Shown: piece after piece, positions 15,222-48,902 of the stretch
How positions within the stretch are numbered: the stretch's first letter is position 1
Layout: every line of letters begins with the position of its first letter
Assembly (NCBI GenBank): GCA_947497175.1
Contig: CANMFM010000001.1
Location: 124,001 to 188,000, forward strand
Length of the DNA: 64,000 nt
From: an uncultured Aquimarina sp.
GTDB taxonomy: Bacteria; Bacteroidota; Bacteroidia; Flavobacteriales; Flavobacteriaceae
Direction: 5' to 3'
Program-made: the position numbers and the translations under genes
Notes under the pieces: generated by a model
Told to the model about the DNA's origin: nothing
Databases searched by the model: none
Seen by the model: only the letters and a program-made list of their open reading frames with translations

Positions 15222-15265
15222 ATGATAAATATCATATTAATTACGGAATACATGATCTAATTTTG
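15222..15265 (+). promoter_or_regulatory. Fnr-like dyad with class II promoter, site 1 (usp 15287)
   Basis: The dyad ATGATAAATATCAT (15222-15235) is followed after exactly 22 bases by a perfect -7 element TAATTTTG (15258-15265). The usp start codon follows 21 bases later. This places the dyad centre near -41.5, the position of class II Crp/Fnr activators. Confidence 0.82.
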
Positions 15266-15286
15266 GTACTATAAAACAGAGAACAC

Positions 15287-16126
15287 ATGAAAAAAATTCT
15301 TGTCCCAGTAGATTTCTCCGAATATTCAGAATATGCATTGCAAGCAGCGGCAAGTATTGCCAAACAGCAAAATGCTAAAATTATAGTGTTGCATATGCTT
15401 GGATTATCCGAAGCGGTATTGACCAAAAATGAAGGTCAGGAAGTAGCCGAAGCAATGTATTATATGAAACTTGCCGAAAAACGGTTTAAAACGTTTCTTG
15501 ATAAAGAGTATCTAAAAGGAATCCAAATTGAAGAAACTGTACAAAATTATAAAATCTTTAGCGAAGTAAATGAAGTCGCACATGAAAGTGACGCAGATCT
15601 AATTATAATGGGCTCTCATGGCACAACAGGTTTACGAGAAGAAGTTTTTATAGGTTCTAATACCGAAAAAGTGGTTCGTACAGCTGATGTACCTGTATTA
15701 GTTATAAAAAAACCGAGTAATGATTTTAAAATAAAGGAAGTGGTATTTGCCTGTGATTTTAAAATGGAAAATATCAGGCCTTACCTTAATGCAGTAAAAC
15801 TTTTTGAATCTCTGGGAGCCAATATTCATCTGTTGTATGTAAACTTGCCGGGAGAACAATTTAGAAATTCTATAGAAATAGAAGAAAAGGTAAAAGAGTT
15901 TCTTTTTAAAGCAGAATCTGGTAATCTGGAAATGCTGGATAAAGTTGTGTATTATAATGATTATAGTGTAGAAAATGGTGTGTTTAATTATAGCAATAAA
16001 AGTAATGCAGATGCGATTGCAATTCCTACACATGGTCGACGGGGTTTAGCCCATTTCTTTAGCGGTAGTATCGGTGAAGATATTGCGAATCATGCCACTA
16101 AACCTGTAATCACATTTAAGATATAA
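15287..16126 (+). CDS. Universal stress protein, two intact Usp domains
   Basis: A 279-residue tandem Usp protein and the only one in the window with both nucleotide-binding loops intact: GSHGTTGLREEVFIGSNTEK in the first domain and THGRRGLAHFFSGSIGEDI in the second. It opens with ILVPVDFSEYSEYALQAA, typical of the fold. It therefore probably binds ATP twice and differs from the paralogs at 22-48 kb, whose second domains are degenerate. An Fnr-like dyad with a perfect promoter sits directly upstream, so it is likely induced with the cbb3 oxidase. Confidence 0.9.
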   Translation: MKKILVPVDFSEYSEYALQAAASIAKQQNAKIIVLHMLGLSEAVLTKNEGQEVAEAMYYMKLAEKRFKTFLDKEYLKGIQIEETVQNYKIFSEVNEVAHESDADLIIMGSHGTTGLREEVFIGSNTEKVVRTADVPVLVIKKPSNDFKIKEVVFACDFKMENIRPYLNAVKLFESLGANIHLLYVNLPGEQFRNSIEIEEKVKEFLFKAESGNLEMLDKVVYYNDYSVENGVFNYSNKSNADAIAIPTHGRRGLAHFFSGSIGEDIANHATKPVITFKI

Positions 16127-16304
16127 GTTTTATCTTTTTTTAGTAAAAAACTAAAGGTCAGAAAAGGCGTCTTAGTAAGAGAAGCGAAGAAATCTGTCAA
16201 ATTTAAATCATTAATTGAAAGGTTACTTCCAAAACTACCATTTTTGATGATGACATTATTCTATGTTTTTTAACTTTGGATTCAGCGTCTTTTATGCGGT
16301 TTTC

Positions 16305-16946
16305 TTATGAGGTGACTAAACGAACTCCTGATGAGGTGCCTATTCTAGAAACACCTAAGTCAATATAGTGCTCTGCAGTTTCAATATCTTGAATACCCCC
16401 AGAAGCTTTTATTTTTACAACGTCTCGCACTTGATTTTTCATCAATACTATATCTTCGAAAGTAGCACCACTAGTCCCAAAACCAGTAGAGGTTTTAATA
16501 TAATCTGCTCCGGCGTTCATAGATAGTTTGCATGCAATTTTTTTTTCTTCATCGGTTAGGTAACAGTTTTCGAAAATCACTTTTAGAAGCTTATTCCCAA
16601 TAGCCTTTTTGACCGCTCTGATTTCATCTTCAACAATTTTATAATATCCGGACTTTAGCAAACCAATATTGAGTACCATGTCAATTTCATCAGCACCTTG
16701 ATCGATGCATTTTTTTGCTTCATATACTTTAACCTGATTAATGATTGACCCAAGAGGAAACCCTACAACGGTAGCAACTTTAATATTGGTATTCATGAGC
16801 TCACTATCAGCTAAAGCAACATAGTAACTGTTAACACAAACCGCATAGAAGTTGTGTTTTTTTGCCTCACTGCAAAGTTTTTTGATATCGTCTACAGTGG
16901 CAGTAGCTTTTAGAAGTGTATGGTCAATATACTGGTTCAGTACCAT
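16305..16946 (-). CDS. deoC: Deoxyribose-phosphate aldolase
   Basis: DeoC splits 2-deoxyribose 5-phosphate into glyceraldehyde 3-phosphate and acetaldehyde in deoxynucleoside breakdown. The 213-residue protein starts with IDHTLLKATATVDDIKKLC. It shows VVGFPLG, DEIDMVLNIG, the Schiff-base lysine in DYIKTSTGFG and KASGGIQ, all family hallmarks. It follows the thioredoxin gene by two bases and shares its transcript. The 178 bases beyond its stop separate it from the convergent usp gene and contain nothing clear. Confidence 0.94.
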   Translation of the reverse strand: MVLNQYIDHTLLKATATVDDIKKLCSEAKKHNFYAVCVNSYYVALADSELMNTNIKVATVVGFPLGSIINQVKVYEAKKCIDQGADEIDMVLNIGLLKSGYYKIVEDEIRAVKKAIGNKLLKVIFENCYLTDEEKKIACKLSMNAGADYIKTSTGFGTSGATFEDIVLMKNQVRDVVKIKASGGIQDIETAEHYIDLGVSRIGTSSGVRLVTS

Positions 16947-16948
16947 TA

Positions 16949-18727: not shown

Positions 18728-18771
18728 TAAATGTAGCCGAGATTCAACAAGAAAAATATGATATTGATCAG
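18728..18771 (-). promoter_or_regulatory. Fnr-like dyad with class II promoter, site 2 (DfsB-like gene)
   Basis: On the minus strand CTGATCAATATCAT (18758-18771) is followed after 22 bases by TACATTTA (18728-18735). The DfsB-like start codon at 18706 follows 21 bases later. Confidence 0.75.
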
Positions 18772-19145: not shown

Positions 19146-19189
19146 TAAAAATAATAGCAAGGGGTTTTCTAAACTATGAGAAATATCAG
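19146..19189 (-). promoter_or_regulatory. Fnr-like dyad with class II promoter, site 3 (gene at 18838-19122)
   Basis: On the minus strand CTGATATTTCTCAT (19176-19189) is followed after 22 bases by TATTTTTA (19146-19153). The dyad overlaps the last bases of the TerB-like gene. One half-site carries a mismatch (TCTCAT). Confidence 0.68.
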
Positions 19190-19618: not shown

Positions 19619-19662
19619 TAAAGTTAATATGTGTTTAAGAAGATTTTTATGACATTTATCAG
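19619..19662 (-). promoter_or_regulatory. Fnr-like dyad with class II promoter, site 4 (TerB-like gene; possibly both directions)
   Basis: On the minus strand CTGATAAATGTCAT (19649-19662) is followed after 22 bases by TAACTTTA (19619-19626) for the TerB-like gene. In the other direction the same dyad lies 23 bases before a perfect TACATTTG, upstream of the kinase gene. Confidence 0.75.
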
Positions 19663-19685: not shown

Positions 19686-19693
19686 TACATTTG
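19686..19693 (+). promoter_or_regulatory. -7 element of the PAS kinase gene
   Basis: TACATTTG matches TAnnTTTG perfectly and ends only 4 bases before the ATG at 19698. Transcription would begin at or next to the start codon, so the mRNA may be leaderless. It lies 23 bases after the Fnr-like dyad at 19649-19662. Confidence 0.55.
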
Positions 19694-19697: not shown

Positions 19698-20954
19698 ATG
19701 AAGGTTTTTAAGGAGAATAATAATATTTTCAGGTTGCTTTCTGAAGCTGTTTCAGAAGGTATTATTGTAGTCAATAAAGATCAGATCGTTGTAGCAACTA
19801 ATGGATCTGCTAATGAGATTTTTGGTTACGATATGGATGAGTTAATAGGCAAACCCTTAAATACGCTCATACCACAAAAATATCATCATAGCCATAAAGC
19901 TCATTTTGAAAATTTTACTCAACATAGCGAAAAGCGCCACATGGGTAAAGGCAGAGACCTTTATGGAGTTCGAAAAGATGGTACAGAATTTCCTGTTGAA
20001 GCAGGTCTTAATCCATTTACAATCTATGATAATCATTACGTAATGGCTTTGGTTATCGATATTACAGAACGCAAAAAACAAGAAGAGAAGATAATAGAAT
20101 TAAATGCAGAGCTCGAACTAAAAGTAGAAGAACGTACAAAAGCATTACATAATACAATACAAGAGTTGAAAGAAGAGGTTAAGCTGCGTAAAGAAGCCGA
20201 AGCCAAAGCCAAAGAATCATTAAAAAAAGAACGTGATCTCAACGAGTTAAAAACGAAGTTTCTATCTATGGTATCTCATGAGTTTAAGACCCCTCTGGGG
20301 GGTATTCTTACTTCGGCTACTTTGATAGGAAAATACACTAAGGAAGAACAACAGGAGAAAAGAGACAAACATCTTAATACCATTAAAAATAAGGTAAAAT
20401 ACCTGGATAATATTCTTACAGATTTTTTATCTATTGAGCGATTGGAAACAGGTAAGGTAAGTTACAAATTTAGTCAGTTTCCACTTAGCAAAGTAATTAA
20501 CGAAGTTGTGTATAATGCCAATATGCTGCTCAAAGACGGGCAAAGAATTAATTATCCAGATGATATAGACGAATACACCATCGAGTTTGATGAAAAGATT
20601 TTAGAATTGATGCTGTCCAACCTCATTAATAATGCTATAAAATATTCTGGAGAGAACACGATAATAGATCTACAAGTAACATTTGAAGAAGATGTTCTTA
20701 TATTTAGGGTTATTGATGAAGGTAGAGGCATCCCCGAAAAAGAACAAGCGTTTATTTTTAAACGATATTTTAGAGCAGAAAACGCTTTGTTAGATCAAGG
20801 AACCGGAATAGGCTTGAATATAGTCAAAAATCATTTAGAGAACCTTGGCGGGAGTATTACATTTACTAGCCAGGAAAATCAAGGCTCGACATTTATTGTT
20901 AAAATACCCTTTATTAATAATTACAAAAATGATGAAAACGATTCTGTTAATTGA
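19698..20954 (+). CDS. PAS-domain histidine kinase, FixL-like
   Basis: A 418-residue cytoplasmic kinase. The PAS domain (about 10-125) carries LIPQKYHHSHKAHFENF and KRHMGKGRDLYGVRKDGTEF, which align with the haem-PAS of FixL. His66 falls on the FixL haem-ligand histidine and Arg86 on the oxygen-contacting arginine. A coiled coil (125-185) leads to the HisKA box MVSHEFKTPLGG with His194, and the ATPase domain follows (NLINNAIKYSG, VIDEGRGIP, GTGIGLNIV). It overlaps the response regulator-Crp gene by 26 bases. I infer an oxygen or redox sensor that phosphorylates that regulator; haem binding is not proven, because similar PAS domains exist without haem. Confidence 0.85.
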   Translation: MKVFKENNNIFRLLSEAVSEGIIVVNKDQIVVATNGSANEIFGYDMDELIGKPLNTLIPQKYHHSHKAHFENFTQHSEKRHMGKGRDLYGVRKDGTEFPVEAGLNPFTIYDNHYVMALVIDITERKKQEEKIIELNAELELKVEERTKALHNTIQELKEEVKLRKEAEAKAKESLKKERDLNELKTKFLSMVSHEFKTPLGGILTSATLIGKYTKEEQQEKRDKHLNTIKNKVKYLDNILTDFLSIERLETGKVSYKFSQFPLSKVINEVVYNANMLLKDGQRINYPDDIDEYTIEFDEKILELMLSNLINNAIKYSGENTIIDLQVTFEEDVLIFRVIDEGRGIPEKEQAFIFKRYFRAENALLDQGTGIGLNIVKNHLENLGGSITFTSQENQGSTFIVKIPFINNYKNDENDSVN

Positions 20955-21990
20955 AGATGATGCTGCTCTTAGAGAAAATACTGCCGAGTTATTAGAACTT
21001 TCAGATTATCATGTAATCACTGCTCCCAACGGAAAGATAGGAATCACAATGGCAAAAGAAGAGAAACCTGATATTATAGTTTGCGATATCATGATGCCCG
21101 AAGTTGATGGTTACGGAGTTTTGGAAGCCCTATCTGATCATAAATATACGAGTCAAATCCCATTTATTTTCTTATCGGCAAGAACAGAGCATAAAGAAAT
21201 TCGTAAAGGAATGAATTTAGGTGCAGATGATTATCTTACCAAACCATTTGAAGAGGAAGAATTAATAAGCGCTATAGAAAGTCGTCTGGCCAAAGCTCAG
21301 ATAATAGCAAATCTTCTTTATGAGCGTAAGGAACAATTTATTGATAATGAGAATCAAGGTGGGTTTAGAAATCTTCATGAACTTAAGAATTTCTTTGATG
21401 ATCATGGAGAGATTTCTGAATTTAAAAAAGGAGAAATAATTTTTAAAGAAGGTGAACATTCTAATAAGATTTATTTGCTTCTGAAAGGGGTAATCAAATC
21501 TCATAAAATGGATGAAAACGGTAAAGAATTGATTACTGCATTATATAAGGCCGATGATTTCTTAGGCTTTACTTCTTTTACAGATAATGTCCCGTATCAA
21601 GAATCGGCTACAGCAGTTGAAGATGCACAATTGGCAGGAATATCAAAAGGGAACTTGAAAGATATTTTAGATAAAAGTAAAAATATTTCACTTGAATTAA
21701 TGGAATTACTTACCGATAATTTATCAGAAATAAAAGGTCAGCTGTTGCAGATGGCTTATAGCTCTGTGCGCAAAAAAACAGCACAAACCATTCTTCAATT
21801 TGCACAAATCCTTACTAAAAAACCAGAGGATACTATTAAAATATCTCGTAATGATTTAGCAAGTGTGGCGGGTATAGCAACAGAGAGTTTGATAAGAACG
21901 TTGTCAAGTTTTAAAAAAGATGGGCTTATAGAAATAGAAGGACGTAATATTAAAATTTTAAATTTACAAGGCCTTCAGTTGATAGAATAA
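20929..21990 (+). CDS. Response regulator fused to a Crp/Fnr module
   Basis: A protein of about 353 residues with a receiver domain (1-120; DIIVCDIMMPEVDGYG with the phosphorylation aspartate, ADDYLTKPF with the lysine), a cyclic-nucleotide-binding-like beta barrel (FKKGEIIFKEGEHSNKIYLL, DDFLGFTSF) and a Crp-type winged helix (ISRNDLASVAGIATESLIRT). It lacks the N-terminal cysteines of Fnr, so it does not carry the Fnr Fe-S sensor; phosphorylation by the adjacent kinase is the likely input. The recognition helix A-T-E-S-L-I-R keeps the Glu and Arg of Fnr. It is the best candidate to read the Fnr-like dyads in this window. Start ATG 20929 or 20932. Confidence 0.88.
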   Translation: MMKTILLIEDDAALRENTAELLELSDYHVITAPNGKIGITMAKEEKPDIIVCDIMMPEVDGYGVLEALSDHKYTSQIPFIFLSARTEHKEIRKGMNLGADDYLTKPFEEEELISAIESRLAKAQIIANLLYERKEQFIDNENQGGFRNLHELKNFFDDHGEISEFKKGEIIFKEGEHSNKIYLLLKGVIKSHKMDENGKELITALYKADDFLGFTSFTDNVPYQESATAVEDAQLAGISKGNLKDILDKSKNISLELMELLTDNLSEIKGQLLQMAYSSVRKKTAQTILQFAQILTKKPEDTIKISRNDLASVAGIATESLIRTLSSFKKDGLIEIEGRNIKILNLQGLQLIE

Positions 21991-22000: not shown

Positions 22001-22044
22001 CTGATTTTTATCATTCTTTTCATCGATATGACCTAATACTTTTG
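22001..22044 (+). promoter_or_regulatory. Fnr-like dyad with class II promoter, site 5 (usp 22066)
   Basis: CTGATTTTTATCAT (22001-22014) is followed after 22 bases by a perfect TACTTTTG (22037-22044), 21 bases before the start codon. Confidence 0.82.
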
Positions 22045-24371: not shown

Positions 24372-25076
24372 CTAATAATGGCATTCAAAATTGGAAGAAA
24401 CGATTTTGGTAGTGGATTTTGGAGAAAGATAAGGGATTCCTAACCCCAGACCGCGCACAATAAATAACAGGCCTATAATTATTATAAATATCGGAATAAC
24501 TTTTTGAATATGTTGGCGTGTTTTCCCTTTTATAAAATTACCTAGATATACAGCGCTGGTCATTAATGGGATAGTACCCAATCCAAACAGTACCATATAT
24601 ACACTACTTTCTAATGCATCACCATAAGCAAGAGCACCAAATACTGCCATATAGACTAACCCACAAGGTAAAAAGCCATTTAAAAAACCGATAGTTAAAA
24701 ACGTATCTGGTGTTTTCTTTTTGAGTGCTATACCCAACGTATTTTTTACTCTCGAAAGAAGTGTATAGATCGGTTTGGTAAAATTATATCTTGTTAAATA
24801 ACGAGTTGGAATTAATACAATTAGAATCATTAAAACTCCAATGGTTATCGATATGCCTTGTTGGATTCCAAAAATTTGAAGACTTTTTCCTAATATTCCA
24901 AAAAACAATCCTATACTGCCATAGGCCAATAATCGACCTAAATGATATAATCCTATATGTAAAAATTTCTTGGCATTATTAGATCTACTCACGGGGAGCA
25001 TAAAAACGATGGGGCCACACATTCCTATGCAGTGAAAACTACCTAATATTCCTAATATAAATGCAGATACTAACAT
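24372..25076 (-). CDS. Sulfite exporter TauE/SafE-like membrane protein of the cbb3 cluster
   Basis: A 234-residue membrane protein with about six segments. It carries GSFHCIGMCGPIVFMLP near the N-terminus and GFLNGFLPCGLVYMAVFGAL in the middle, the cysteine-containing repeats of the DsbD-like SafE family (PF13386 type). Members are regularly encoded at the end of Bacteroidetes cbb3 oxidase operons and are thought to help copper delivery or cytochrome maturation. It follows ccoH by two bases and ends 7 bases from the convergent hemN. Confidence 0.82.
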   Translation of the reverse strand: MLVSAFILGILGSFHCIGMCGPIVFMLPVSRSNNAKKFLHIGLYHLGRLLAYGSIGLFFGILGKSLQIFGIQQGISITIGVLMILIVLIPTRYLTRYNFTKPIYTLLSRVKNTLGIALKKKTPDTFLTIGFLNGFLPCGLVYMAVFGALAYGDALESSVYMVLFGLGTIPLMTSAVYLGNFIKGKTRQHIQKVIPIFIIIIGLLFIVRGLGLGIPYLSPKSTTKIVSSNFECHY

Positions 25077-25078
25077 TT

Positions 25079-25525
25079 TTAATAGGTAAATGATTTTTTA
25101 AACAGGTATGAAGTATTTCCATATTGCCAATCAATTGTAATATTCCAACGACCTTCAATCATATATTCATCTGAAATAAGATACACATTATTCTGAAGTG
25201 ATATAGGAATTTCAAAATCTAGTTTTTTATTGGATGGTCGATATAAGAAAATCGTTCCCGAGATTTTATCGAACTCTTTTTCGTCAGGAAACGTAATTAC
25301 GATTCCATGTAAAGTTTTCTCAAAAGTGATATTATTTTTCAGAGCTTTTGCATTTTTTTCGGCATCAATTTCTTTCTGAAATGCTAATTCTTCTTTATAA
25401 TATTCTTCGGTGACCAAATCATGCGAATACTTTTCATTACTATTCATTTTTATAACAAAATACATGATGAAAGAGATAAACCCTATAAATGCAAGTACTA
25501 TGGCTGTTCCCCAGTTTATTTTCAT
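25079..25525 (-). CDS. ccoH: FixH/CcoH family cbb3 oxidase assembly protein
   Basis: A 148-residue protein with one N-terminal membrane segment (INWGTAIVLAFIGFISFIMYFVI) and a periplasmic FixH domain (YSHDLVTEEYYKEELAFQKE, ending with WNITIDWQYGNTSYLFKKSF). CcoH is needed for stable assembly of cbb3-type cytochrome oxidase. The start at 25525 (MKINWG) is typical for flavobacterial members. The frame opens upstream through the palindromic repeat at 25544-25565, which is not part of the protein. Confidence 0.9.
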   Translation of the reverse strand: MKINWGTAIVLAFIGFISFIMYFVIKMNSNEKYSHDLVTEEYYKEELAFQKEIDAEKNAKALKNNITFEKTLHGIVITFPDEKEFDKISGTIFLYRPSNKKLDFEIPISLQNNVYLISDEYMIEGRWNITIDWQYGNTSYLFKKSFTY

Positions 25526-25543
25526 GATGTTTAATTTTTTTTG

Positions 25544-25565
25544 GATGCCGGCATACGCCGGCATC
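25544..25565. repeat. GC-rich palindrome between ccoG and ccoH
   Basis: GATGCCGGC-ATAC-GCCGGCATC is a perfect hairpin with 9-base arms and a 4-base loop, strikingly GC-rich for this genome. Translated, either strand gives a MPAYAGI-like string, as in short palindromic repeats dispersed in many bacterial genomes. It would form a stable hairpin in the ccoG-ccoH message. Confidence 0.75.
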
Positions 25566-25627
25566 AATTTTAATACCTTATTTTCGTATTCTTTTTTAAT
25601 ACGTTAATCTACTTAACGACCGTAGCC

Positions 25628-27049
25628 TTATCTATAGCTTCTGGGCCCCAAAAAGGAAGCAGTTGTAGTTTCTATAAGTTTGTTATTACTATATATACCA
25701 ATTTTTATTTTATCCTTATCTCCACTTAGCACAGAGGCATTTACTTCTATAAACAAGGTTCCTTCAGCCAATCCCTGTTTTGGAACCGAAAAGTTTTTAT
25801 GAGTTACCGGTTCAATAGTTCCTTTGTGTGATAATAATCTAAAATGAACATCTTCAATTTCTGACGTAGTTTTATTTACTAATTTATAGGTGTAAACATT
25901 GCTAATCATGTTATTGTCTTTTCGTTCATACAGTTGTCCTGGCAATCGTAAAATATTGGCTTCGACATCATTTCTTAATAATGACATGCCCAAGAAAACA
26001 CCAATTAGAATAAATAGCACCGCACTGTATCCTTTTAATCGGGGTGTAAATTTAAATTTTGCCTTTTTAGAAATATTTTCTTCACTGGCATATCGTATCA
26101 AACCTTTAGGTAGATTGACACTTTCCATCATGTGATCACATGCATCAATACAAGCGGTGCAGTTTACGCATTCTAATTGGGTTCCGTTGCGAATATCAAT
26201 TCCGGTAGGGCAGACATGAACGCATTGAAAACAGTCAATACAATCACCTTTACCGGCCGAAGAGCGATCTTCGTTTTTCTTAAATTTAGCTCTTCCTACT
26301 TCTTTCTCTCCTCGTTTATAATCATAAGCAACCACAATGGATTTTGAATCGAGTAATACTCCTTGTAATCGCCCGTAGGGACATGCTATAATACAAACTT
26401 GCTCTCTAAACCAGGCAAATACAAAATAGAATACGGTGGTGAATATAAGTAATGAAATTAGAGTGTTTACATTGGCTAAAGGTCCGTCAATAATATATTG
26501 TAACAATTGATCACTGCCGATTAAGTACGCCAGAAATATATTCGCTATCAGGAATGAGATAATGAAAAATATAAGCCATTTTGTAACTCGTTTTCTTATT
26601 TTCTCAGCGTTCCAGGATTGTTTGTCTAAACGTATTTGTTTTCCACGATCCCCTTCTATCCAGTATTCAATTCTACGAAAGACCATTTCCATAAATATGG
26701 TTTGCGGACAAATCCAACCACAAAAAATCCTTCCGAAGGCTACTGTAAAAAGGGTAATAAATATGACTCCAATAACCATTGAAATTACAAATAAATGAAA
26801 ATCTTGAGGCCAGAAGGGAGCTCCGAAAATATTGAAACGACGTTCTAAAACATTAAACAGTAAGAATTGGTTCCCGTTGATTTTTATAAAAGGTGCTGAA
26901 AACAAAAATAGTAGCAATCCGTAACTTATCCATTTTCTGTATGTATAAAATCTTCCACTTGGTTTTTTAGGATACACCCAGGCCCGTTTTCCTTCATCGT
27001 TTACGGTAGCAATCGAATCTCTAAATTTTTCGTTTGTTGGTGTTTCCAA
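25628..27049 (-). CDS. ccoG: Cytochrome c oxidase accessory protein CcoG
   Basis: A 473-residue membrane protein with polyferredoxin domains that reduces copper for delivery to the cbb3 oxidase. It has about five membrane segments, the motifs CGWICPQTIFMEMVFRR and CIIACPYGRLQ, and two classical 4Fe-4S clusters (CIDCFQCVHVCPTGIDIRNG and CVNCTACIDACD). A C-terminal Ig-like FixG domain follows. The start appears to be TTG 27049; the frame stays open upstream into ccoP without an ATG. It lies 28 bases after ccoP in the same operon. Confidence 0.93.
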   Translation of the reverse strand: METPTNEKFRDSIATVNDEGKRAWVYPKKPSGRFYTYRKWISYGLLLFLFSAPFIKINGNQFLLFNVLERRFNIFGAPFWPQDFHLFVISMVIGVIFITLFTVAFGRIFCGWICPQTIFMEMVFRRIEYWIEGDRGKQIRLDKQSWNAEKIRKRVTKWLIFFIISFLIANIFLAYLIGSDQLLQYIIDGPLANVNTLISLLIFTTVFYFVFAWFREQVCIIACPYGRLQGVLLDSKSIVVAYDYKRGEKEVGRAKFKKNEDRSSAGKGDCIDCFQCVHVCPTGIDIRNGTQLECVNCTACIDACDHMMESVNLPKGLIRYASEENISKKAKFKFTPRLKGYSAVLFILIGVFLGMSLLRNDVEANILRLPGQLYERKDNNMISNVYTYKLVNKTTSEIEDVHFRLLSHKGTIEPVTHKNFSVPKQGLAEGTLFIEVNASVLSGDKDKIKIGIYSNNKLIETTTASFLGPRSYR

Positions 27050-27077
27050 TGGATTTTGTTTAGCATTAAAAAATTGA

Positions 27078-28052
27078 TCAGTTTTCCTGAACCGTGTTAT
27101 GGGATAGAACCACTAGCGTCGAATCAGAAACTGTTTCCAGAACTTCTTTTGTAGGGGTTTCGTCTTTTTTAGCGTCTGGATCTAACCATATTTCTCCTTG
27201 CGCTTCTTTTGGTTCTGCTGGAGTTGTACCTCCTAAAGTGATTACATAACTAGCTACCTGAGCCATTTCGGCCGGTTTTAAGGTTTGTTTCCAAGCGACC
27301 ATTCCTTTTCCATCTCTTCCTCCTTCAGAAATGGTTCTGAATACATTTTTGATTCCTCCTCCCAAAATCCAATATTTATCGGTGAGATTAGGGCCAATAC
27401 CACCGCCTCCATCAGCTTTGTGACAAGCAACACAATGTGTTGTGAAAATTCCTTTTCCGGCATTAATATCTGATGCTTCGGTGAGTAGAGTTACAGTAGT
27501 AACATCTACCAGATCTTTGGCATTCTTTTTATATTCTTCAATTGCAATTTTAGCTTCGGCCACTTCGCTTTCAAATTCTTCTGCCTGTGTATAATCATTA
27601 AAGACATGAAAACGAACCATGTAAATAACACCAAATAGGATAGTCGCATAAAATCCATATACCCACCATGGCGGAAGGTTGTTATCTAATTCTTTAATGC
27701 CATCATAATTGTGGTCTAAAATAATTTCATCTTCTTGCTCCAAAGGTTTACTATCCAAAAGTCTTAGATAGGTCTTTTTTATCCATCTAAACTGTTTCGC
27801 TTTTCTTGCGCTCTCTGCTGATTGATATCGCTCTTGTGCTTCAGGGCTTAAGGCCATGAACAAAATATTCTTAAAAGCAGCTAAACAGATCTCGGCTGCT
27901 ACCATAAATAAAAGCGCTATTCCTAAGCCTAGCCAACTTAGTGGTTGTACAATAAATGCAGATTGATCTCCTGTTTCTACAGTTATCTCTATCAAAACAT
28001 AGGTTATTAATAAAAAGGTAATGATTCTTATATAAGATGAAGTACTTCTCAT
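27078..28052 (-). CDS. ccoP: cbb3-type cytochrome c oxidase subunit III (single haem)
   Basis: A 324-residue membrane-anchored cytochrome c that passes electrons to the catalytic subunits. Two or three N-terminal membrane segments include VYGFYATILFGVIYMVRFHV, preceded by the typical DGIKELDNNLPPWWV. A single haem site CVACHKADGGGGIGPNL lies near residue 207 and the axial methionine in GMVAWK. Proteobacterial CcoP has two CxxCH motifs; the one-haem form is usual in Bacteroidetes. It overlaps ccoQ by four bases (ATGA). Confidence 0.92.
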   Translation of the reverse strand: MRSTSSYIRIITFLLITYVLIEITVETGDQSAFIVQPLSWLGLGIALLFMVAAEICLAAFKNILFMALSPEAQERYQSAESARKAKQFRWIKKTYLRLLDSKPLEQEDEIILDHNYDGIKELDNNLPPWWVYGFYATILFGVIYMVRFHVFNDYTQAEEFESEVAEAKIAIEEYKKNAKDLVDVTTVTLLTEASDINAGKGIFTTHCVACHKADGGGGIGPNLTDKYWILGGGIKNVFRTISEGGRDGKGMVAWKQTLKPAEMAQVASYVITLGGTTPAEPKEAQGEIWLDPDAKKDETPTKEVLETVSDSTLVVLSHNTVQEN

Positions 28053-28237
28053 AGCATAGTTTCGTTTTCGGTGGTTTCTAATGGAATGTTGCTTACTTCT
28101 TTAATATGCTCTTTTTTTGTAGTGAATATCCACCAGAACAATGCAGCAAAGAAGACAAAAAATATGAGTAAGGATATTATGGGATAGATCTCTATCCCAT
28201 CGATACTTTCCATATGGCCTTTTACAAATTTTAGCAT
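28049..28237 (-). CDS. ccoQ: CcoQ-like small subunit
   Basis: A 62-residue protein with one membrane helix (YPIISLLIFFVFFAALFWWIF) and a charged cytoplasmic tail starting TTKKEHIKEV. This matches CcoQ/FixQ subunits, which stabilise cbb3 oxidase. Position between ccoNO and ccoP and the 4-base overlap with ccoP strengthen the call. Confidence 0.85.
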   Translation of the reverse strand: MLKFVKGHMESIDGIEIYPIISLLIFFVFFAALFWWIFTTKKEHIKEVSNIPLETTENETML

Positions 28238-28241
28238 AGCT

Positions 28242-30449: not shown

Positions 30450-30450
30450 A

Positions 30451-30645
30451 TTATGATTGATTATTTTTTGTGGATACAGGGGATTTTTCTTTGCTTTCTT
30501 TTACGAGCTCATCCTCAAAAAGTATTCGTATCGAGGGTGTATAGATATCATCATATTGACCATTTCGAACGGATAGGATAAATGCTATAAAAAAGATGAT
30601 GGCAACGATAATACTAATCGTTAAGAGTACATAAATTACACCCAT
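30451..30645 (-). CDS. ccoS: cbb3 oxidase assembly protein CcoS
   Basis: A 64-residue protein with one membrane segment (IYVLLTISIIVAIIFFIAFIL) and the CcoS signature S-V-R-N-G-Q-Y-D-D-I-Y-T-P-S-I-R-I-L-F followed by a charged tail. CcoS is needed to insert haem and copper into the cbb3 oxidase. It is the first gene of the operon ccoS-NO-Q-P-G-H-safE and has the Fnr-like promoter upstream at 30665-30708. Confidence 0.9.
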   Translation of the reverse strand: MGVIYVLLTISIIVAIIFFIAFILSVRNGQYDDIYTPSIRILFEDELVKESKEKSPVSTKNNQS

Positions 30646-33902: not shown

Positions 33903-33946
33903 CAAAAATGAAAAAGTATTACGTTGCATACTATGATAAATATCAT
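33903..33946 (-). promoter_or_regulatory. Fnr-like dyad with class II promoter, site 7 (ccoI)
   Basis: On the minus strand ATGATATTTATCAT (33933-33946) is followed after 22 bases by CATTTTTG (33903-33910), one mismatch from TAnnTTTG. The ccoI start follows 18 bases later. Confidence 0.75.
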
Positions 33947-33956: not shown

Positions 33957-34000
33957 CTGATAAAAATCATAGTTTTCACGCCGGCCATTATCTAGATTTG
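33957..34000 (+). promoter_or_regulatory. Fnr-like dyad with class II promoter, site 8 (usp operon 34029-36615)
   Basis: CTGATAAAAATCAT (33957-33970) is followed after 22 bases by a perfect TAGATTTG (33993-34000), 28 bases before the first usp gene. Only 10 bases separate this dyad from site 7, so two back-to-back activator sites share one short intergenic region. Confidence 0.82.
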
Positions 34001-34877: not shown

Positions 34878-34889
34878 AAGTCTACGACA

Positions 34890-35741: not shown

Positions 35742-35766
35742 TTTGATGAACTCAAAGCATGAACAA

Positions 35767-36615
35767 ATGAAACGAATTTTGATTCCCACAGATTTTTCAG
35801 AAAATGCATGGAATACTGTATTGTACACAATACAATTGTTTGAAGGGACTTCTTGTGAGTTTTATCTTCTTAATGCATACGACATTACTCCTGTAGAACT
35901 TATGAGTACGGTAAGTTCGCAGCGGGTAGGTCATTTTTATGAGGCTGTTAAAAAGGAATCTGTAGAAACACTGAAAATGATTTTGGATGATATCACAAAT
36001 TCTAATCCAGATGAGAAACATGTTTTCAAATCTATCTCAAAATCAGGTACTTTAACAGAAGCAGTAGACGAGTCGTTTAATGATACCCATTTTGATATGA
36101 TTATTATCGGAACAAAAGGAGCTACCGGTGCTAAAGAAATTTTTTTAGGAAGTAATACTCAAAAAGTAATTAGAAATATTGATGCATGTCCAATTTTGGT
36201 TGTACCCGAGGATTCTTTTTTTGAGAACATTTCTGAAATTGCTTTTGCTACAAATTTTGAAAGAATATATTATGATGCAGAAATAAAACCAATTATTGAT
36301 CTTGCTAAACTTCAGAATGCAATGGTTAGAATGATCCATGTGTATGATACACCAGAGTTAAATCAGATGCAGCGTTTTAATGCAAATAAACTCGAACATT
36401 ATTTTAAGTCAATACATTATGATTTTCATGTTATTCGTGATTTCTCTACCATAGAAAAGGCCATCCAGGCATTTCTTGAAGAACTAGAGATCAATTTACT
36501 GGTAATGATTAAGTATCAACACAGCTTTATAGAACGACTTACACGAGAAGCTGTAATTAAAAAAATAACATTTCATACGAATATCCCTTTTTTGGTAATT
36601 CCTTCAGATAGCTGA
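35767..36615 (+). CDS. Universal stress protein (tandem array, third)
   Basis: A 282-residue tandem Usp protein. By comparison with its neighbours the start is ATG 35767 (MKRILIPTDFSENAWN); the frame opens earlier, at TTG 35743. Domain 1 has GTKGATGAKEIFLGSNTQKV. Domain 2 is degenerate and ends with KYQHSFIERLTREAVIKK and NIPFLVIP. The intergenic region after it holds Fnr-like site 9. Confidence 0.88.
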   Translation: MKRILIPTDFSENAWNTVLYTIQLFEGTSCEFYLLNAYDITPVELMSTVSSQRVGHFYEAVKKESVETLKMILDDITNSNPDEKHVFKSISKSGTLTEAVDESFNDTHFDMIIIGTKGATGAKEIFLGSNTQKVIRNIDACPILVVPEDSFFENISEIAFATNFERIYYDAEIKPIIDLAKLQNAMVRMIHVYDTPELNQMQRFNANKLEHYFKSIHYDFHVIRDFSTIEKAIQAFLEELEINLLVMIKYQHSFIERLTREAVIKKITFHTNIPFLVIPSDS

Positions 36616-36655
36616 GAATTGTCATAGTATTCTTCAGGGTTTAGGAATAATTTTA
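36612..36655 (+). promoter_or_regulatory. Fnr-like dyad with class II promoter, site 9 (usp 36681)
   Basis: CTGAGAATTGTCAT (36612-36625) is followed after 22 bases by TAATTTTA (36648-36655), 25 bases before the start codon. The dyad overlaps the stop codon of the preceding usp gene. Confidence 0.75.
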
Positions 36656-36680
36656 TACTTCACTTATACTATTATTTATC

Positions 36681-37529
36681 ATGAAACGAATACTTGTACC
36701 AACCGATTTTTCAGAAAATGCATATAGCGCACTTTTCTATGCAACTCGTCTATTTCAGGGTCAGGAATGCCAGTTTTATATCTTACATACTTTTGATGTA
36801 AATACTCCGGTTTTAACCAGTAGGGTTAACACGAGTAAAGGTGATCTTTTGTACCAACAATTAAGCAATGAATCCCAGGAAAAACTCACAGAAACCTATC
36901 ATTCTATTGTAAGAGACACCGATGAGTTTAATCATACTTTTGAAACTATTTCCGTTTCCAAAAAACTATCAGAAACTATTAATAAAACAATAAAAAGTAA
37001 ACATATTGACCTTGTTGTTATGGGTACCAAAGGAGCAAGTGGTGCCAAAGAGATTTTTATGGGAAGTAATACGGTTAATGCAGTTCAAAAAATTAAGGAT
37101 TGCCCGATATTAGCAATACCCGATGAGTTTGATTTTGAAGAGTTAATTGATATAGCTTTTGCCACTGATTTTAGACGGTTCTACAGTAAAAAAGAACTCA
37201 AACCTATTTTACAGATGGCCTCATTATTTAATTCAAATATCAGGATAATGCATATCCATGAGGAAGAAAAGTTAGATGAGACGCAAGAACATAACTTTAA
37301 GAAACTCAAAGAACATCTTGACGGGTACAACTATACATTGCATTGGATGTCAAGGTTTGATAAAAAAACTGAAGTGATTAACACATTCATTGACAAAATG
37401 AATATAAACATGCTGGCAATGCTATATTATAAACATAGTTTTCTAGAAAGCATTACTCATGAACCGGTTATTAAAAAAATAGGATTTCATGCTTCGATAC
37501 CATTCTTGATAATTCCGGCGGTCAGCTGA
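36681..37529 (+). CDS. Universal stress protein (tandem array, fourth)
   Basis: A 282-residue tandem Usp protein. Domain 1 begins ILVPTDFSENAYSALFYATR and carries GTKGASGAKEIFMGSNTVNA. Domain 2 begins DIAFATDFRRFYSKKE and ends YYKHSFLESITHEPVIKK with SIPFLIIP. The K-H-S-F-x-E motif shared with the other arrays suggests one duplicated ancestor with a lost second nucleotide site. It is transcribed from its own Fnr-like promoter. Confidence 0.88.
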   Translation: MKRILVPTDFSENAYSALFYATRLFQGQECQFYILHTFDVNTPVLTSRVNTSKGDLLYQQLSNESQEKLTETYHSIVRDTDEFNHTFETISVSKKLSETINKTIKSKHIDLVVMGTKGASGAKEIFMGSNTVNAVQKIKDCPILAIPDEFDFEELIDIAFATDFRRFYSKKELKPILQMASLFNSNIRIMHIHEEEKLDETQEHNFKKLKEHLDGYNYTLHWMSRFDKKTEVINTFIDKMNINMLAMLYYKHSFLESITHEPVIKKIGFHASIPFLIIPAVS

Positions 37530-37569
37530 TAATTATCATAGTTTTCAAAAGCTATGACCCATACATTTA
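37526..37569 (+). promoter_or_regulatory. Fnr-like dyad with class II promoter, site 10 (usp 37596)
   Basis: CTGATAATTATCAT (37526-37539, both half-sites ideal) is followed after 22 bases by TACATTTA (37562-37569), 26 bases before the start codon. The dyad overlaps the stop codon of the preceding usp gene. Confidence 0.8.
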
Positions 37570-37595
37570 TACTATAAACCTTAAAAAAATAAGTA

Positions 37596-38447
37596 ATGAA
37601 AAAGAAGATCTTATTGCCTACAGATTTTTCAAAAAATGCATGGAATGCTATACAATACGCCATAGAGTTATATAAAAACGAAACTTGCGATTTTTATATA
37701 CTTAACGCTTTTAATGCTTCTGGTTATGCTTTAGAAAGTATGATGGTACCAGAGCCGGGTGAAAAATTCTACGAAGAAGCTAAAGAGAAATCAGAACAAG
37801 GGCTAAGTAAAATTTTGCAAAGGTTAAGTTTTAGAGATGATAATTCTAATCATAAATTCTTTATGGTGTCACAATTTAATAATCTACTGGATGCCATCAA
37901 AGACATTGTGGATAAAGAAGATATCCAAATGATCATTATGGGGACCAAAGGGAAAACGGGAGCTAGAGATGTTGTTTTTGGGAGCAATACCGTCATGATT
38001 ATGGAAAAATCCAGAACTTGTCCTGTAATGGCAATACCAGAAGAAGCCAACTATAAAGATCTCAAAGAAATTGTATTTCCTACCGACTATAAAATGAATT
38101 TTAAGCGCAGGGAGCTTCAGGATATTGTAGAGGCTGCAAAAATGAGTAAAGCCGCTATTCGAATTCTATATGCATCAAATGGTGACCCTCTTACAGAAGA
38201 ACAAGAGAACAACAAAAAGCTCCTCAATGAAATTTTTGAGGGATTATCATATACATTTCACGTACTAACTAATGTTGATCCACAATCTGCAGTACGTTGT
38301 TTTGTCGAAAGCAGGGAGAGTGATATGATTGCTTTCTTTAATCGAAAACATAGTTTTTTTGGAAGTGTATTTTCTAGACCCATGGTAAAAAGCCTTGGAC
38401 GCTATTCTAAAGTCCCGGTATTGGCATTACATGATTTAAGAAATTAA
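37596..38447 (+). CDS. Universal stress protein (tandem array, fifth)
   Basis: A 283-residue tandem Usp protein. Domain 1 starts ILLPTDFSKNAWNAIQYAIE and has GTKGKTGARDVVFGSNTVMI. Domain 2 starts EIVFPTDYKMNFKRRELQD and ends NRKHSFFGSVFSRP. It is the most divergent of the array at the C-terminus (VPVLALHDLRN). The gene at 38461 follows after 13 bases and is probably co-transcribed. Confidence 0.88.
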   Translation: MKKKILLPTDFSKNAWNAIQYAIELYKNETCDFYILNAFNASGYALESMMVPEPGEKFYEEAKEKSEQGLSKILQRLSFRDDNSNHKFFMVSQFNNLLDAIKDIVDKEDIQMIIMGTKGKTGARDVVFGSNTVMIMEKSRTCPVMAIPEEANYKDLKEIVFPTDYKMNFKRRELQDIVEAAKMSKAAIRILYASNGDPLTEEQENNKKLLNEIFEGLSYTFHVLTNVDPQSAVRCFVESRESDMIAFFNRKHSFFGSVFSRPMVKSLGRYSKVPVLALHDLRN

Positions 38448-38911: not shown

Positions 38912-38955
38912 CTGATAATTATCATTTTTTTAGTGCTTTTACAGGGTTAAATTTA
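38912..38955 (+). promoter_or_regulatory. Fnr-like dyad with class II promoter, site 11 (gene 38981)
   Basis: CTGATAATTATCAT (38912-38925) is followed after 22 bases by TAAATTTA (38948-38955), 25 bases before the start codon. Confidence 0.78.
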
Positions 38956-39415: not shown

Positions 39416-39459
39416 CTGATATTTATCATTTTTATCAACCTTTTACTGCTTTAATTTTA
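39416..39459 (+). promoter_or_regulatory. Fnr-like dyad with class II promoter, site 12 (hsp20)
   Basis: CTGATATTTATCAT (39416-39429) is followed after 22 bases by TAATTTTA (39452-39459), 41 bases before the hsp20 start codon. Confidence 0.78.
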
Positions 39460-39500: not shown

Positions 39501-39944
39501 ATGTCAATAATCAAATTTAACAAGAACAGGTTTCCCTGGATTAATGATCGCATGTCCAACTGGTTGGATACCGATGATTTTTTTGCAGATGATTTCTTCA
39601 TAAGAAATAAAAATCTACCTGCAATGAATGTCAAAGAAAACGAGAATGCCTTTGATATAGAATTTGCTGTTCCTGGTTTTTCAAAAAAAGATATAGAAGT
39701 AACCATGGAGGATGATATTCTACATATTAGTGCTAAAAGTAGTACAGAAGAGGTAGAGGAAGAGGAGAATTATACACGCAAAGAATTCAATTATAGCTCC
39801 TTTGACAGAAAGCTACAATTACCAGGCAGTGTAGATCAAAACAAAAAGGTTAAAGCTACATACAAAGACGGAATTCTAACTCTTAATCTTTTAAAAAGAG
39901 AGGAAGCTAAAGAGCCACCAAAGAGAGTAATTGATATAGCTTAA
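39501..39944 (+). CDS. Small heat shock protein Hsp20/alpha-crystallin
   Basis: A 147-residue small heat shock protein that holds unfolding proteins in a refoldable state. The alpha-crystallin domain runs from about residue 36 (MNVKENENAFDIEFAVPGFSKKDIEV) to the strand KVKATYKDGILTLNLLKRE, which contains the family's A-x-x-x-x-G-x-L motif. The tail VIDIA replaces the usual I-x-I. It is placed under an Fnr-like dyad rather than an evident heat-shock element, which links it to low oxygen or redox stress. Confidence 0.92.
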   Translation: MSIIKFNKNRFPWINDRMSNWLDTDDFFADDFFIRNKNLPAMNVKENENAFDIEFAVPGFSKKDIEVTMEDDILHISAKSSTEEVEEEENYTRKEFNYSSFDRKLQLPGSVDQNKKVKATYKDGILTLNLLKREEAKEPPKRVIDIA

Positions 39945-40452: not shown

Positions 40453-40461
40453 GATATTTTG

Positions 40462-40962
40462 ATGTTACGTCTTCTAAAAATAATTTTGATTGCTGTTTTG
40501 GTACTGATCTCCGGGTTTTGGGTATGGTACGAGTATACATTTTCAATGGATACTGTGATCCCTTTTGAGGTTAATGATTCAAGCTTGAACACCAAGGTAT
40601 TAATCGCCTCACAAGGGAGTAAATTCAAAGATTCATTAGTGCAAGGAGTTTTAAAACATTATCAGAGCGATACGATACACTTTAAAGTTATAGATGTATA
40701 TACTTTGTTTACCGTAAATATTGAAAAGTGGGATGCCTTAATTATTATTAATTCCTGGGAATATGGCAGTCCACCATCTAATGTGAAAAAGTTTATTAAA
40801 AATCACCCGGATCGATTAGATAAACTCATCATACTTTCTACCGTAGGAAGCAGTAATATAGCGCTAGAAGATGTAGATGTAATATCTGGCGAATCAATTA
40901 TAGAAAAAACATCACAATACACGAACATATTGGTAAAACGATTAGATAAAATAATTAAATAA
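40462..40962 (+). CDS. Membrane-anchored flavodoxin-like protein
   Basis: A 166-residue protein with one N-terminal membrane anchor (LLKIILIAVLVLISGFWVWY). A small alpha/beta domain follows that resembles the flavodoxin fold: VLIASQGSKFKDSLVQGVL as the phosphate-loop strand and helix, WDALIIINSWEYGSPPSNVKKF as the central strand and loop, and KLIILSTVGSS later. The typical T/S-x-T-G-x-T loop is replaced by S-Q-G-S-K-F, so FMN binding is uncertain. The start is ATG 40462 (TTG 40459 also possible). It stands between an unknown stress protein and a lipoprotein. Confidence 0.55.
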   Translation: MLRLLKIILIAVLVLISGFWVWYEYTFSMDTVIPFEVNDSSLNTKVLIASQGSKFKDSLVQGVLKHYQSDTIHFKVIDVYTLFTVNIEKWDALIIINSWEYGSPPSNVKKFIKNHPDRLDKLIILSTVGSSNIALEDVDVISGESIIEKTSQYTNILVKRLDKIIK

Positions 40963-44223: not shown

Positions 44224-44267
44224 CAAAAATAAGGCAATTATTTTTTCGAAACAGTAACAATTGTTAC
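44224..44267 (-). promoter_or_regulatory. GTAACA-AT-TGTTAC dyad with class II promoter, site B (persulfide dioxygenase)
   Basis: The perfect palindrome GTAACAATTGTTAC (44254-44267) is followed on the minus strand after 22 bases by a perfect -7 element TATTTTTG (44224-44231). The start codon lies 65 bases further on. Confidence 0.82.
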
Positions 44268-45090: not shown

Positions 45091-45134
45091 CAAAAGTACC
45101 TTTGGAAAACAGCTGTTGCAGTAACATTTGTTAC
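45091..45134 (-). promoter_or_regulatory. GTAACA-TT-TGTTAC dyad with class II promoter, site C (TauE gene)
   Basis: The palindrome GTAACATTTGTTAC (45121-45134) is followed on the minus strand after 22 bases by a perfect TACTTTTG (45091-45098), 15 bases before the start codon. The dyad lies just downstream of the Crp/Fnr regulator gene. Confidence 0.82.
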
Positions 45135-45140: not shown

Positions 45141-45773
45141 CTAAATTTGTATCACTTCAATAGTATTCCTATTCAGTTTAACTTTACCCTTTTGTTCTAG
45201 CTTTTTGAGTAATCTAGAAATCACAACTCGTGAGGTATGAAGATCGTAGGCGATTTCCTGATGTGTATTATTGATTATAGAATCCTGGTTAACCTTAGTC
45301 TTATCTGTAAGGTATTTTAGTAACCGATCATCCATTTTTAGAAAAGCAATACTGTCTATGGTTTCGATAGCTTCAATTAATCGTTTGTGATAGCTGTCAA
45401 ACATAAAGTTTCTCCAGGATTTATATTTGGTTGTCCATTCTTCCATCTTTTCAATAGGTACCATGATGAGTTTGGCATCGGTTTCAGCAATGGCTTTAAT
45501 TTCGCTTTTATGGCTTCCCAAACAACAAGATAACGTCATTGCACAGGTATCTCCTCGTTCTAGAAAATATAGCAACAACTCATCACCATCATTATCTTCT
45601 CTTAGAATTTTTATCGCACCGCTAATAATTAAAGGCATTGATTTAATATAGCTACCCGGTTTAATTAGCTCAAAACCCTCTGGGACTTCCTTCAACGTTC
45701 CTACCTGATTAATTTCTTCTAAGAGTTCGTCTTCAAAAAGGTTTTTATAGTTACTTTTTATCTCCTGAATCAT
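45141..45773 (-). CDS. Crp/Fnr family regulator with cysteine motif
   Basis: A 210-residue regulator: cyclic-nucleotide-binding-like domain (1-120), a long dimer helix, and a winged helix with HQEIAYDLHTSRVVISRLLKKL. The recognition helix S-R-V-V-I-S-R lacks the Glu of Crp and Fnr, in line with a different DNA target. The sensor domain contains DTCAMTLSCCLGSHKSEI, three cysteines at the place where Crp binds cAMP, so a cysteine-based sensor of persulfide or redox state is plausible. It overlaps the patatin gene by 23 bases and probably regulates the three GTAACA dyads downstream. Confidence 0.86.
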   Translation of the reverse strand: MIQEIKSNYKNLFEDELLEEINQVGTLKEVPEGFELIKPGSYIKSMPLIISGAIKILREDNDGDELLLYFLERGDTCAMTLSCCLGSHKSEIKAIAETDAKLIMVPIEKMEEWTTKYKSWRNFMFDSYHKRLIEAIETIDSIAFLKMDDRLLKYLTDKTKVNQDSIINNTHQEIAYDLHTSRVVISRLLKKLEQKGKVKLNRNTIEVIQI

Positions 45774-47983: not shown

Positions 47984-48002
47984 TGATGGATTTTACAGAG
48001 CA

Positions 48003-48839
48003 TTAGCTATGCATAATTAATAAAGGTACTCGAGTGCCGTAACTAATTTTTGAAGTTTCGGAACCTTTAAGAAATCGTTCTATAAAGGTTTCTCTTTTAA
48101 TAAACATTGCGGTTAGATCAACATTCATGACTTGAACAAAACTATCAATGGCTAGTGCTGTGGGTACGTTAATTATAGAATGAAAAGTATGATTGATTCC
48201 CTTAAAAAATTCCTTCATATGTTTTTTGTCGTCAAATTCGGCTATTGTAACCGTTTCATCTTCTTTAATCTTAAGTATGCGTAATGAAGACCTATGTTTT
48301 GCAAGGGTATCCATTAGGGGCTCGATACCTTTTGTAGTAAAACGATCTCTGTAATCAATGGCCAATAGAACGGTTTTTAGATTTTGATAGACATATCCTT
48401 GAGGGATTGCCAGTACTGGACAATCTATTTTCCGAATAACATTGAGTGTATTGCTTCCAAATACTACTTCTGAAGCACCGGTAGCACCATTAGTTCCCAT
48501 AACAATGAGATCAATATTTTTTGATATAATCGCTTGTCGTATCGCATCTATAAAAACATCATAATCGGTTATTGTATGATAGGAGTAGTTTTGATCAGGA
48601 TATTTCGATTTTAGATCTTCGATAACGATAGTAAGCTTTTGTTTTGCTTCACTAATCACCGATTCATGGATCGATGTATTCGCCGAAGCCACCATGAGAT
48701 CATCTGTAGTATAACCAGATGTTTTCTGAACGTTAAACAGATAAAACGTGCAGAGCTCGTTCTTGAAAAATTGCATAGCAAAGTATATAGCATTCTTCGA
48801 ATTATCTGAAAAATCAGTGGGAAGCAGAATATTTTTCAT
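48003..48839 (-). CDS. Universal stress protein (first gene of cls-patatin-crp operon)
   Basis: A 278-residue tandem Usp protein. Domain 1 starts ILLPTDFSDNSKNAIYFAMQ and has GTNGATGASEVVFGSNTLNV. Domain 2 (TVLLAIDYRDRFTTKGIEPL) is degenerate and ends with RETFIERFLKGSETSKIS, a variant of the K-H-S-F-x-E motif. An Fnr-like dyad with promoter lies upstream, so the operon usp-cls-patatin-crp should respond like the 34-39 kb array on the other strand. Confidence 0.88.
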   Translation of the reverse strand: MKNILLPTDFSDNSKNAIYFAMQFFKNELCTFYLFNVQKTSGYTTDDLMVASANTSIHESVISEAKQKLTIVIEDLKSKYPDQNYSYHTITDYDVFIDAIRQAIISKNIDLIVMGTNGATGASEVVFGSNTLNVIRKIDCPVLAIPQGYVYQNLKTVLLAIDYRDRFTTKGIEPLMDTLAKHRSSLRILKIKEDETVTIAEFDDKKHMKEFFKGINHTFHSIINVPTALAIDSFVQVMNVDLTAMFIKRETFIERFLKGSETSKISYGTRVPLLIMHS

Positions 48840-48858
48840 TGTAAATGTTTTATAGTCT

Positions 48859-48902
48859 TAAAAGTAGCCCGGATTCAATCAGATTACAATGATATTTATC
48901 AT
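48859..48902 (-). promoter_or_regulatory. Fnr-like dyad with class II promoter, site 13 (usp-cls-patatin-crp)
   Basis: On the minus strand ATGATAAATATCAT (48889-48902) is followed after 22 bases by TACTTTTA (48859-48866), 19 bases before the usp start codon at 48839. Confidence 0.8.

Follow-up and report, generated by a model that had tools for sequence, protein, structure and literature searches.

Which regulator reads a promoter element that recurs across 36 kb of a flavobacterial chromosome, and to what does it respond? The stretch at issue (hereafter the window) comprises 64 kb (C1:124001-188000) of the 4.59-Mb, 21-contig genome of an uncultured Aquimarina sp., in which a first-pass annotation had described 13 Fnr-like dyads at a fixed distance from a Bacteroidetes -7 element, before usp genes, genes of the cbb3 oxidase (cco) and others, as a low-oxygen/stress regulon. 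We consider it probable that these composites are class II activated promoters of a single regulon with a low-oxygen survival programme as its output, the likely activator being a PAS histidine kinase together with a response regulator in which a receiver is fused to a Crp/Fnr module (REC-CRP), both encoded within the cluster.

Architecture and targets of the composite promoter

All 13 dyads were recovered at the positions given by the annotation. Eight match TGAYAnnTRTCA exactly and five deviate by one base (several imperfect copies had been noted), and in 13 of 13 cases exactly 22 bp separate the dyad from the -7 element, each composite pointing toward a gene start. The -7 elements likewise read as described, with TAnnTTTG at 15258, 22037, 30665 and 33993, TAnnTTTA at eight others and CATTTTTG, one base off, at 33903. 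The 13 sites thereby carry the type of -7 element that marks Bacteroidetes sigma-A promoters (TAnnTTTG); 12 of them conform to TAnnTTTR and eight end in A, so that most fall short of the perfect TAnnTTTG consensus.

To count composites without reference to the earlier list, we scanned both strands of the window for the 12-mer TGAN6TCA, from which the 22-bp gap of the 14-mer corresponds to an offset of 23. At this offset TAnnTTTR was found in 13 of 74 dyad-strands; elsewhere in the range scanned (offsets 0-59) there were never more than two matches. Shuffling the sequence 200 times with dinucleotides preserved gave 0.12 matches at offset 23 on average (maximum 2) and never more than 3 at any offset. 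The 13 hits comprise 12 of the sites already listed and a new one at 12537; the dyad at 33933 escaped the scan owing to its imperfect -7 element, bringing the total in the window to 14 composites. By contrast, the dyad on its own is weakly enriched (20 copies with at most one mismatch versus 11.3 expected, with 2 of 100 shuffles equally rich), indicating that the signal resides in the fixed spacing. The enrichment over shuffled sequence that the annotation had proposed as a check was thus borne out in the window, and it extends to the genome as a whole and to relatives.

In an excerpt of a study that mapped transcription starts in Flavobacterium psychrophilum (PMC9723704), the TAnnTTTG box lies at -12 to -5. 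When this placement is borrowed, the dyad centre falls at -41.5 at every site, the class II position that had been claimed for it, which supports the assignment of these sites as class II Crp/Fnr promoters with a predicted contact to polymerase. Downstream of the predicted +1, the first ATG to open a reading frame (ORF) of 45 codons or more follows after 14-37 nt at 13 of the 14 sites and after 100 nt at the remaining one, before the hibernation factor gene. It is reasonable, as far as can be judged from sequence, to regard the spacing rule as accurate enough for calling starts.

The new site (12537-12580, + strand) reads CTGACATTCATCAT-N22-TATTTTTG and precedes a gene for an HPF/YfiA-type ribosome hibernation factor (12685-12987, +; TIGR00741 and PF02482, both over cut-off). 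Six putative promoters precede usp genes: those at 15222-15265 (+) before usp 15287, 22001-22044 (+) before usp 22066, 33957-34000 (+) before usp 34029 and perhaps also serving the usp genes after it, 36612-36655 (+) before usp 36681, 37526-37569 (+) before usp 37596, and 48859-48902 (-) before usp 48839-48003. Five usp genes assigned by Pfam occupy 34029-38447 (+). The composite at 30665-30708 (-) would drive ccoS (30645) and the cco genes behind it, a probable operon of ccoS, ccoNO, ccoP, ccoG, FixH and DsbD_2 genes (24372-30645, -). The composite containing CATTTTTG (33903-33946, -) faces ccoI (31491-33884, -), which encodes a metal-transport P-ATPase, and another (39416-39459, +) faces the Hsp20 gene (39501-39944, +). 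The site at 18728-18771 (-) falls within the longest ORF of a DUF1706 gene and implies a start at 18706 rather than 18802, coincident with the start of the Pfam match. Three sites precede genes for products without a family: orf18838 (94 aa; site 19146-19189, -), orf19186 (134 aa; 19619-19662, -) and orf38981 (138 aa; 38912-38955, +).

With respect to the targets that had been named beforehand, Pfam confirmed FixS/ccoS, ccoNO, ccoP, ccoG, FixH, the ccoI-type ATPase, usp and Hsp20. The gene called DfsB-like was recovered as DUF1706, the name DfsB being returned by no search, and the TerB-like assignment found no support: when seven products lacking a Pfam name were scanned (18838, 19186, 38461, 38981, 40009, 40459 and 40973), their matches did not include the TerB family.

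Across the whole genome there are 17 composites with at most one mismatch, and 14 of them are the window's sites (C1:136538-172901), including 7 of 7 with no mismatch and 7 of 10 with one; the three others lie on contigs C6, C7 and C13. The recognisable regulon of this strain is therefore nearly a single 36-kb island. When two mismatches are allowed, 82 composites are obtained versus 65 for a reversed control, so such matches prove nothing by themselves and weaker sites elsewhere cannot be judged; among matches with exactly two mismatches we interpreted only a TAACA pair.

Conservation of the composite across Flavobacteriaceae

To ask if relatives use the same rule, we collected 80 named loci of 3-21 kb around REC-CRP homologues (the best 80 of 529 confirmed). 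A -7 element stands at offset 23 in 454 of 1908 dyad-strands, whereas other offsets average 4.5 and reach at most 25 (at offset 24), and the 48 loci outside Aquimarina alone gave 273 versus 2.4. Every one of the 80 loci has sites, from 1 to 10 each. Similarly, 199 evenly drawn genomes of the family contained 948 exact composites compared with 7 for the reversed pattern. The rule of a dyad, 22 bp and a -7 element thus holds across the family.

At positions that played no part in finding them, the 441 non-redundant sites show T after TCA in 97%, Y in 97% and R in 99%. The base preceding TGA is C in 63%, A in 29% and T in 3%, in agreement with the annotation's remark that the core lacks the flanking T of TTGAT. 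With C or A upstream and T on the promoter side, the dyad is directional. The family sites also contain a run of T at about -33, the spacers at offsets 21-28 hold almost no information, and spacer sequences differ among the sites of the window.

The targets of the 454 sites are dominated by usp genes (198 sites, in 80 of 80 loci), followed by the genes for the 134-aa protein (61 sites, 59 loci), DUF3298 (31, 30 loci), the 94-aa protein (25, 24 loci), ccoS-like products (23, 23 loci), the hibernation factor (21, 21 loci) and Hsp20 (10, 10 loci). Another 31 sites precede members of other gene families of the window, 46 precede genes homologous to none of those compared from the window, and the last 8 have no ORF within 300 bp.

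Class II activation by Crp/Fnr proteins is known from E. coli CRP and FNR, with which these promoters share the TGA-N6-TCA palindrome centred at -41.5 and targets in low-oxygen respiration. They differ in the Bacteroidetes TAnnTTTG-type promoter, in the C/A flank that replaces the T of TTGAT and in the directionality of the dyad. To our knowledge, the action of activators at Bacteroidetes promoters, with their unusual -7 element, is poorly understood. The family-wide recurrence of a 44-bp rule (dyad, 22 bp, TAnnTTTR) allows regulated promoters and their starts to be predicted directly. A literature search of titles and abstract starts, with subscription journals mostly outside its reach, returned no account of the motif rule or of a REC-CRP regulon in Bacteroidetes, which is weak evidence of novelty.

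The candidate activator

The annotation had named no regulator; we now propose as the best candidate the REC-CRP encoded within the cluster (20932-21990, +), beside the PAS histidine kinase (19698-20954, +). REC-CRP belongs to the Crp/Fnr superfamily (PF00027, 67 bits; PF13545, 49.5 bits; both over cut-off) and is a response regulator by its receiver (PF00072, 101 bits), in which D9, D10, D52, S82 and K104 are constant in 81 of 81 REC-CRPs. The recognition helix ATESLIR is invariant in the same 81 proteins except for one T-to-I replacement. The output consists of cNMP_binding and HTH_Crp domains, a LuxR-type family being absent among its four Pfam matches, and the protein is not of the Fe-S FNR type: its single cysteine lies in VCDIMMP, and it has no N-terminal cysteine cluster. 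Its nearest named relatives are from Aquimarina (88% identity for A. mytili), although records very near this genome may have been omitted. A kinase ORF ends at REC-CRP in 79 of the 80 loci.

The PAS domain of the kinase has FixL as its closest PDB match (E 6e-14), and its His66 aligns with the haem-ligand histidine of FixL. Among the 79 ORFs ending at REC-CRP this histidine is constant (79/79) and the aligned arginine nearly so (76/79). A looser count, which accepts any kinase match in the 80 loci, finds histidine in 48 of the covering sequences and other residues in the rest. On the + strand, the dyad at 19650 is followed at offset 24 by TACATTTG (19686-19693), just 5' of the kinase ATG (19698); this could possibly reflect autoregulation with a leaderless start, or chance.

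We then asked if the sites accompany the regulator in the 199 genomes. A second candidate reader in the family is a flavobacterial CxxC-FNR (MSKCEQC-type, usually near ccoNO), whose recognition helix in the proteins read is TATESAIR or near and thus close to that of REC-CRP, and which shares the same composite at cco promoters. It differs in having no receiver and in its N-terminal CxxC. Regulator classes were set by E-value limits of 1e-60 for REC-CRP (86 of 199 genomes; this class takes in proteins of 41-45% identity, maybe a sister group) and 1e-50 for CxxC-FNR (116 of 199). Genomes with both regulators contain on average 9.0 exact composites (n=48), those with REC-CRP only 5.2 (n=38) and those with FNR only 4.3 (n=68), versus a mean of 0.6 and a median of 0 in genomes with neither (n=45, 37 of them without any site). 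The two regulators have additive effects on site number, which is what a shared ability to read the site would predict. G177, a genome from the window's own genus in which both regulators are missing, lacks sites and ccoNO alike. The ratio of TGAT to TGAC half-sites was tried as a discriminator between the regulators and set aside, since it separates them poorly (TGAC in 37 of 86 FNR-only and 21 of 72 REC-only half-sites, from 79 twelve-mers in 14 genomes among the matches listed).

Searches of the Aquimarina genome itself gave three proteins over the HTH_Crp_2 cut-off and one fragment below it, and no CxxC-FNR at E 1e-50 with the family FNR as query. On the strength of this search at E 1e-50 a stand-alone CxxC-FNR was set aside as the activator in this strain, and REC-CRP probably serves the cbb3 promoter too. 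Taken together, the kinase/REC-CRP pair is the most likely activator in this genome. Among Bacteroidetes Crp/Fnr regulators, HcpR, PgRsp and CrpPg of P. gingivalis appear to differ from REC-CRP, in that the excerpts of the respective studies mention no receiver for them (PMC12040651, PMC6955866).

The cbb3 promoter, the signal and competing explanations

We inspected the ccoNO upstream regions of 80 genomes. Of the ccoNO-bearing genomes, these take in all 33 REC-only ones besides our own, 25 of the 63 that are FNR-only, 20 of the 47 that encode both regulators and the 2 that encode neither, the FNR-only and two-regulator promoters being hand-picked. A composite with 0-2 mismatches was present in 32 of 33, 25 of 25, 19 of 20 and 2 of 2, respectively, compared with 3-6 mismatches for the best reversed match; of the two promoters lacking it, one falls at the end of a contig. 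A regulator is present in 144 of 146 genomes with ccoNO versus 10 of 53 without it (P 2e-31, kinship uncorrected). In the 110 genomes that have both FNR and ccoNO, the two lie less than 4 kb apart in 93 and less than 12 kb apart in 103. Moreover, REC-CRP lies about 0.9-1.0 kb from CxxC-FNR in 9 of 48 two-regulator genomes (G061, G071, G110, G121, G134, G153, G159, G173 and G180), a sign that both regulators are part of one system; in all of these but G180 the pair is also close to ccoNO.

The base before TGA at the cco promoters (L186-L265) differs with the regulator, the ratio of C to A being 21:9 among 32 REC-only sites versus 4:20 among 25 FNR-only sites (P 1e-4, two and one T sites omitted), a comparison confounded by kinship. 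On a REC-CRP tree, which includes 27 of the 30 best REC-CRP matches among the loci, the presence of FNR changes by loss or gain at least five times, at least three of them on well-supported branches, with 12 of 24 inner branches unresolved. The retention of the cco site, the linkage of FNR to ccoNO and the repeated change of FNR in the tree make it seem that the same promoter has been passed between two activators. We lean, by a modest degree, toward the view that in Flavobacteriaceae two paralogous activators, CxxC-FNR and a phosphorylation-controlled REC-CRP, respond to different inputs yet read a common set of promoters with almost identical recognition helices, and that in several lineages where FNR is absent the cbb3 promoter keeps its site under REC-CRP, perhaps with a change of the flank from A to C. 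Such a history, in which the sites of a regulon are kept while the sensor may have changed, would, if true, amount to a natural experiment, run several times over, in exchanging the sensor of a conserved regulon.

As to mechanism, we propose that the PAS kinase responds to low oxygen or to a redox cue and would phosphorylate the receiver of REC-CRP, whose Crp/Fnr output would then bind the dyad. A Crp/Fnr-type dimer on C/A-TGAYA-WW-TRTCA-T at -41.5 would replace the contact at -33 and recruit sigma-A polymerase to TAnnTTTR (-12 to -5). In relatives these sites would be served by a stand-alone CxxC-FNR, by REC-CRP or by both. The predicted output is a low-oxygen survival programme comprising the cbb3 oxidase and its assembly, several usp genes, Hsp20 and the ribosome-hibernation factor. 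The low-oxygen element of the annotation gains indirect support from the cbb3 operon as a target and from the presence of a candidate activator in nearly all ccoNO genomes; for this organism itself we infer it. The proposal names a testable activator, and for these bacteria it connects respiration under hypoxia with usp, Hsp20 and ribosome hibernation.

Several observations weigh against parts of this proposal. The residue aligned with FixL I215 is polar in 77 of 79 kinases, which makes haem binding doubtful. With a distal pocket unlike that of FixL, in which the hydrophobic residue is not kept although the histidine is constant, we infer oxygen sensing by the kinase rather than deduce it from the domain, and a FixL-type haem sensor is at most a candidate identity. 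Both ccoNO genomes without either regulator (G020 and G048) keep the cco site, and ccoNO lies within 20 kb of REC-CRP in just 7 of 34 REC-only genomes (our own included), with a further 7 at 20-80 kb. In G020, a Crp/Fnr variant (L266, G020:C47) with three cysteines near its N-terminus and the helix ASESLIR lies about 7 kb from ccoNO on one contig and is likely a third kind of reader. Eight of the 45 genomes classed as having neither regulator retain sites, including G048 (10 sites, 82% complete) and G138 (5 sites, 99% complete); the latter has no ccoNO, neither regulator at the limits set and one Crp-like protein with a VETVIR helix. The genomes of this class are mostly small, and of the 11 that reach 2.5 Mb and 90% completeness nine are without sites and two have 5 and 1. 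Conversely, five regulator-bearing genomes (three FNR-only, two REC-only) have no exact site, and the co-occurrence counts take no account of phylogeny. Finally, the Aquimarina genome encodes six short Crp-like proteins with an abridged helix-turn-helix, of which C10:55059 reads TESLSR and could, by this helix, bind a TGA half-site.

It is possible, if on balance doubtful, that the signal behind the dyad is not low oxygen but nitric oxide, redox, starvation or something else, the regulon then serving general stress or the stationary phase. In favour of this view, the usp, Hsp20 and hibernation factor genes all count as general stress genes, and the PAS domain is a doubtful haem binder. On the other hand, cbb3 promoters keep the site under whichever regulator is present, genomes with ccoNO nearly always have a regulator, and F. 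psychrophilum raises cbb3 when oxygen is limiting, according to the same excerpt (PMC9723704).

That the class II sites are real and another Crp/Fnr protein activates them, REC-CRP being a mere neighbour, is unlikely. This genome has 13 proteins with a cNMP domain, nine of them Crp-like and shorter than 400 aa (REC-CRP included), from which the six short proteins, the one on C8 or the Crp encoded at 45141 might be chosen. As one of the short proteins also has the E...R pair, the helix argument is not decisive in itself, and the case for REC-CRP rests on co-occurrence and position: site numbers track the presence of REC-CRP or CxxC-FNR, and each of the 80 REC-CRP loci has sites. In addition, the C8 and 45141 proteins are without the Glu of the E...R pair, and two sites of a different dyad, TAACAnnTGTTA, lie beside the 45141 gene. 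An origin of the repeats in AT-rich intergenic sequence or in copied usp promoters deserves practically no credence, for although several targets are paralogous usp genes, the spacers differ among sites with almost no information at offsets 21-28, the targets come from many families, and the failure of shuffles and the reversed pattern to yield composites rules out a composition artefact.

Compared with known systems, a kinase/REC-CRP circuit as proposed would resemble the FixL/FixJ/FixK cascade cut to one step. FixJ and DosR are response regulators with a LuxR-type output domain, and REC-CRP, with its Crp/Fnr output, is a member of neither group. The mycobacterial DosS/DosR dormancy regulon includes Hsp20. 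It also contains six usp genes, as reported in an excerpt of PMC2914252, so that a two-component regulon rich in usp and with Hsp20 is common to both; here, by contrast, the output is of the Crp/Fnr type, the cbb3 promoter carries the site and a hibernation factor is included. In rhizobia, an excerpt of PMC9104804 places FixK2 under FixLJ. Shared with that cascade are a PAS domain whose nearest solved structure is FixL, a response regulator, DNA binding of the Crp/Fnr type and cbb3 targets, the differences being that here receiver and Crp/Fnr module are fused and that usp, Hsp20 and hibernation-factor promoters share the site.

Two minor observations concern other parts of the window. The 167-aa product of 40459-40962 (+) matches menaquinone-dependent protoporphyrinogen dehydrogenase only weakly, at an E-value of 0.0018 and well short of the cut-off. 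The different dyad mentioned above, TAACAnnTGTTA, shows the regular spacing before TAnnTTTG at 44224-44266 (-) and 45091-45133 (-), upstream of MBL-rhodanese and TauE genes and beside the other Crp gene (45141-45773), whose helix is without Glu. This composite is found family-wide at 97 sites in 74 of 199 genomes, versus 9 for the reversed pattern, so that the spacing rule extends beyond a single regulator.

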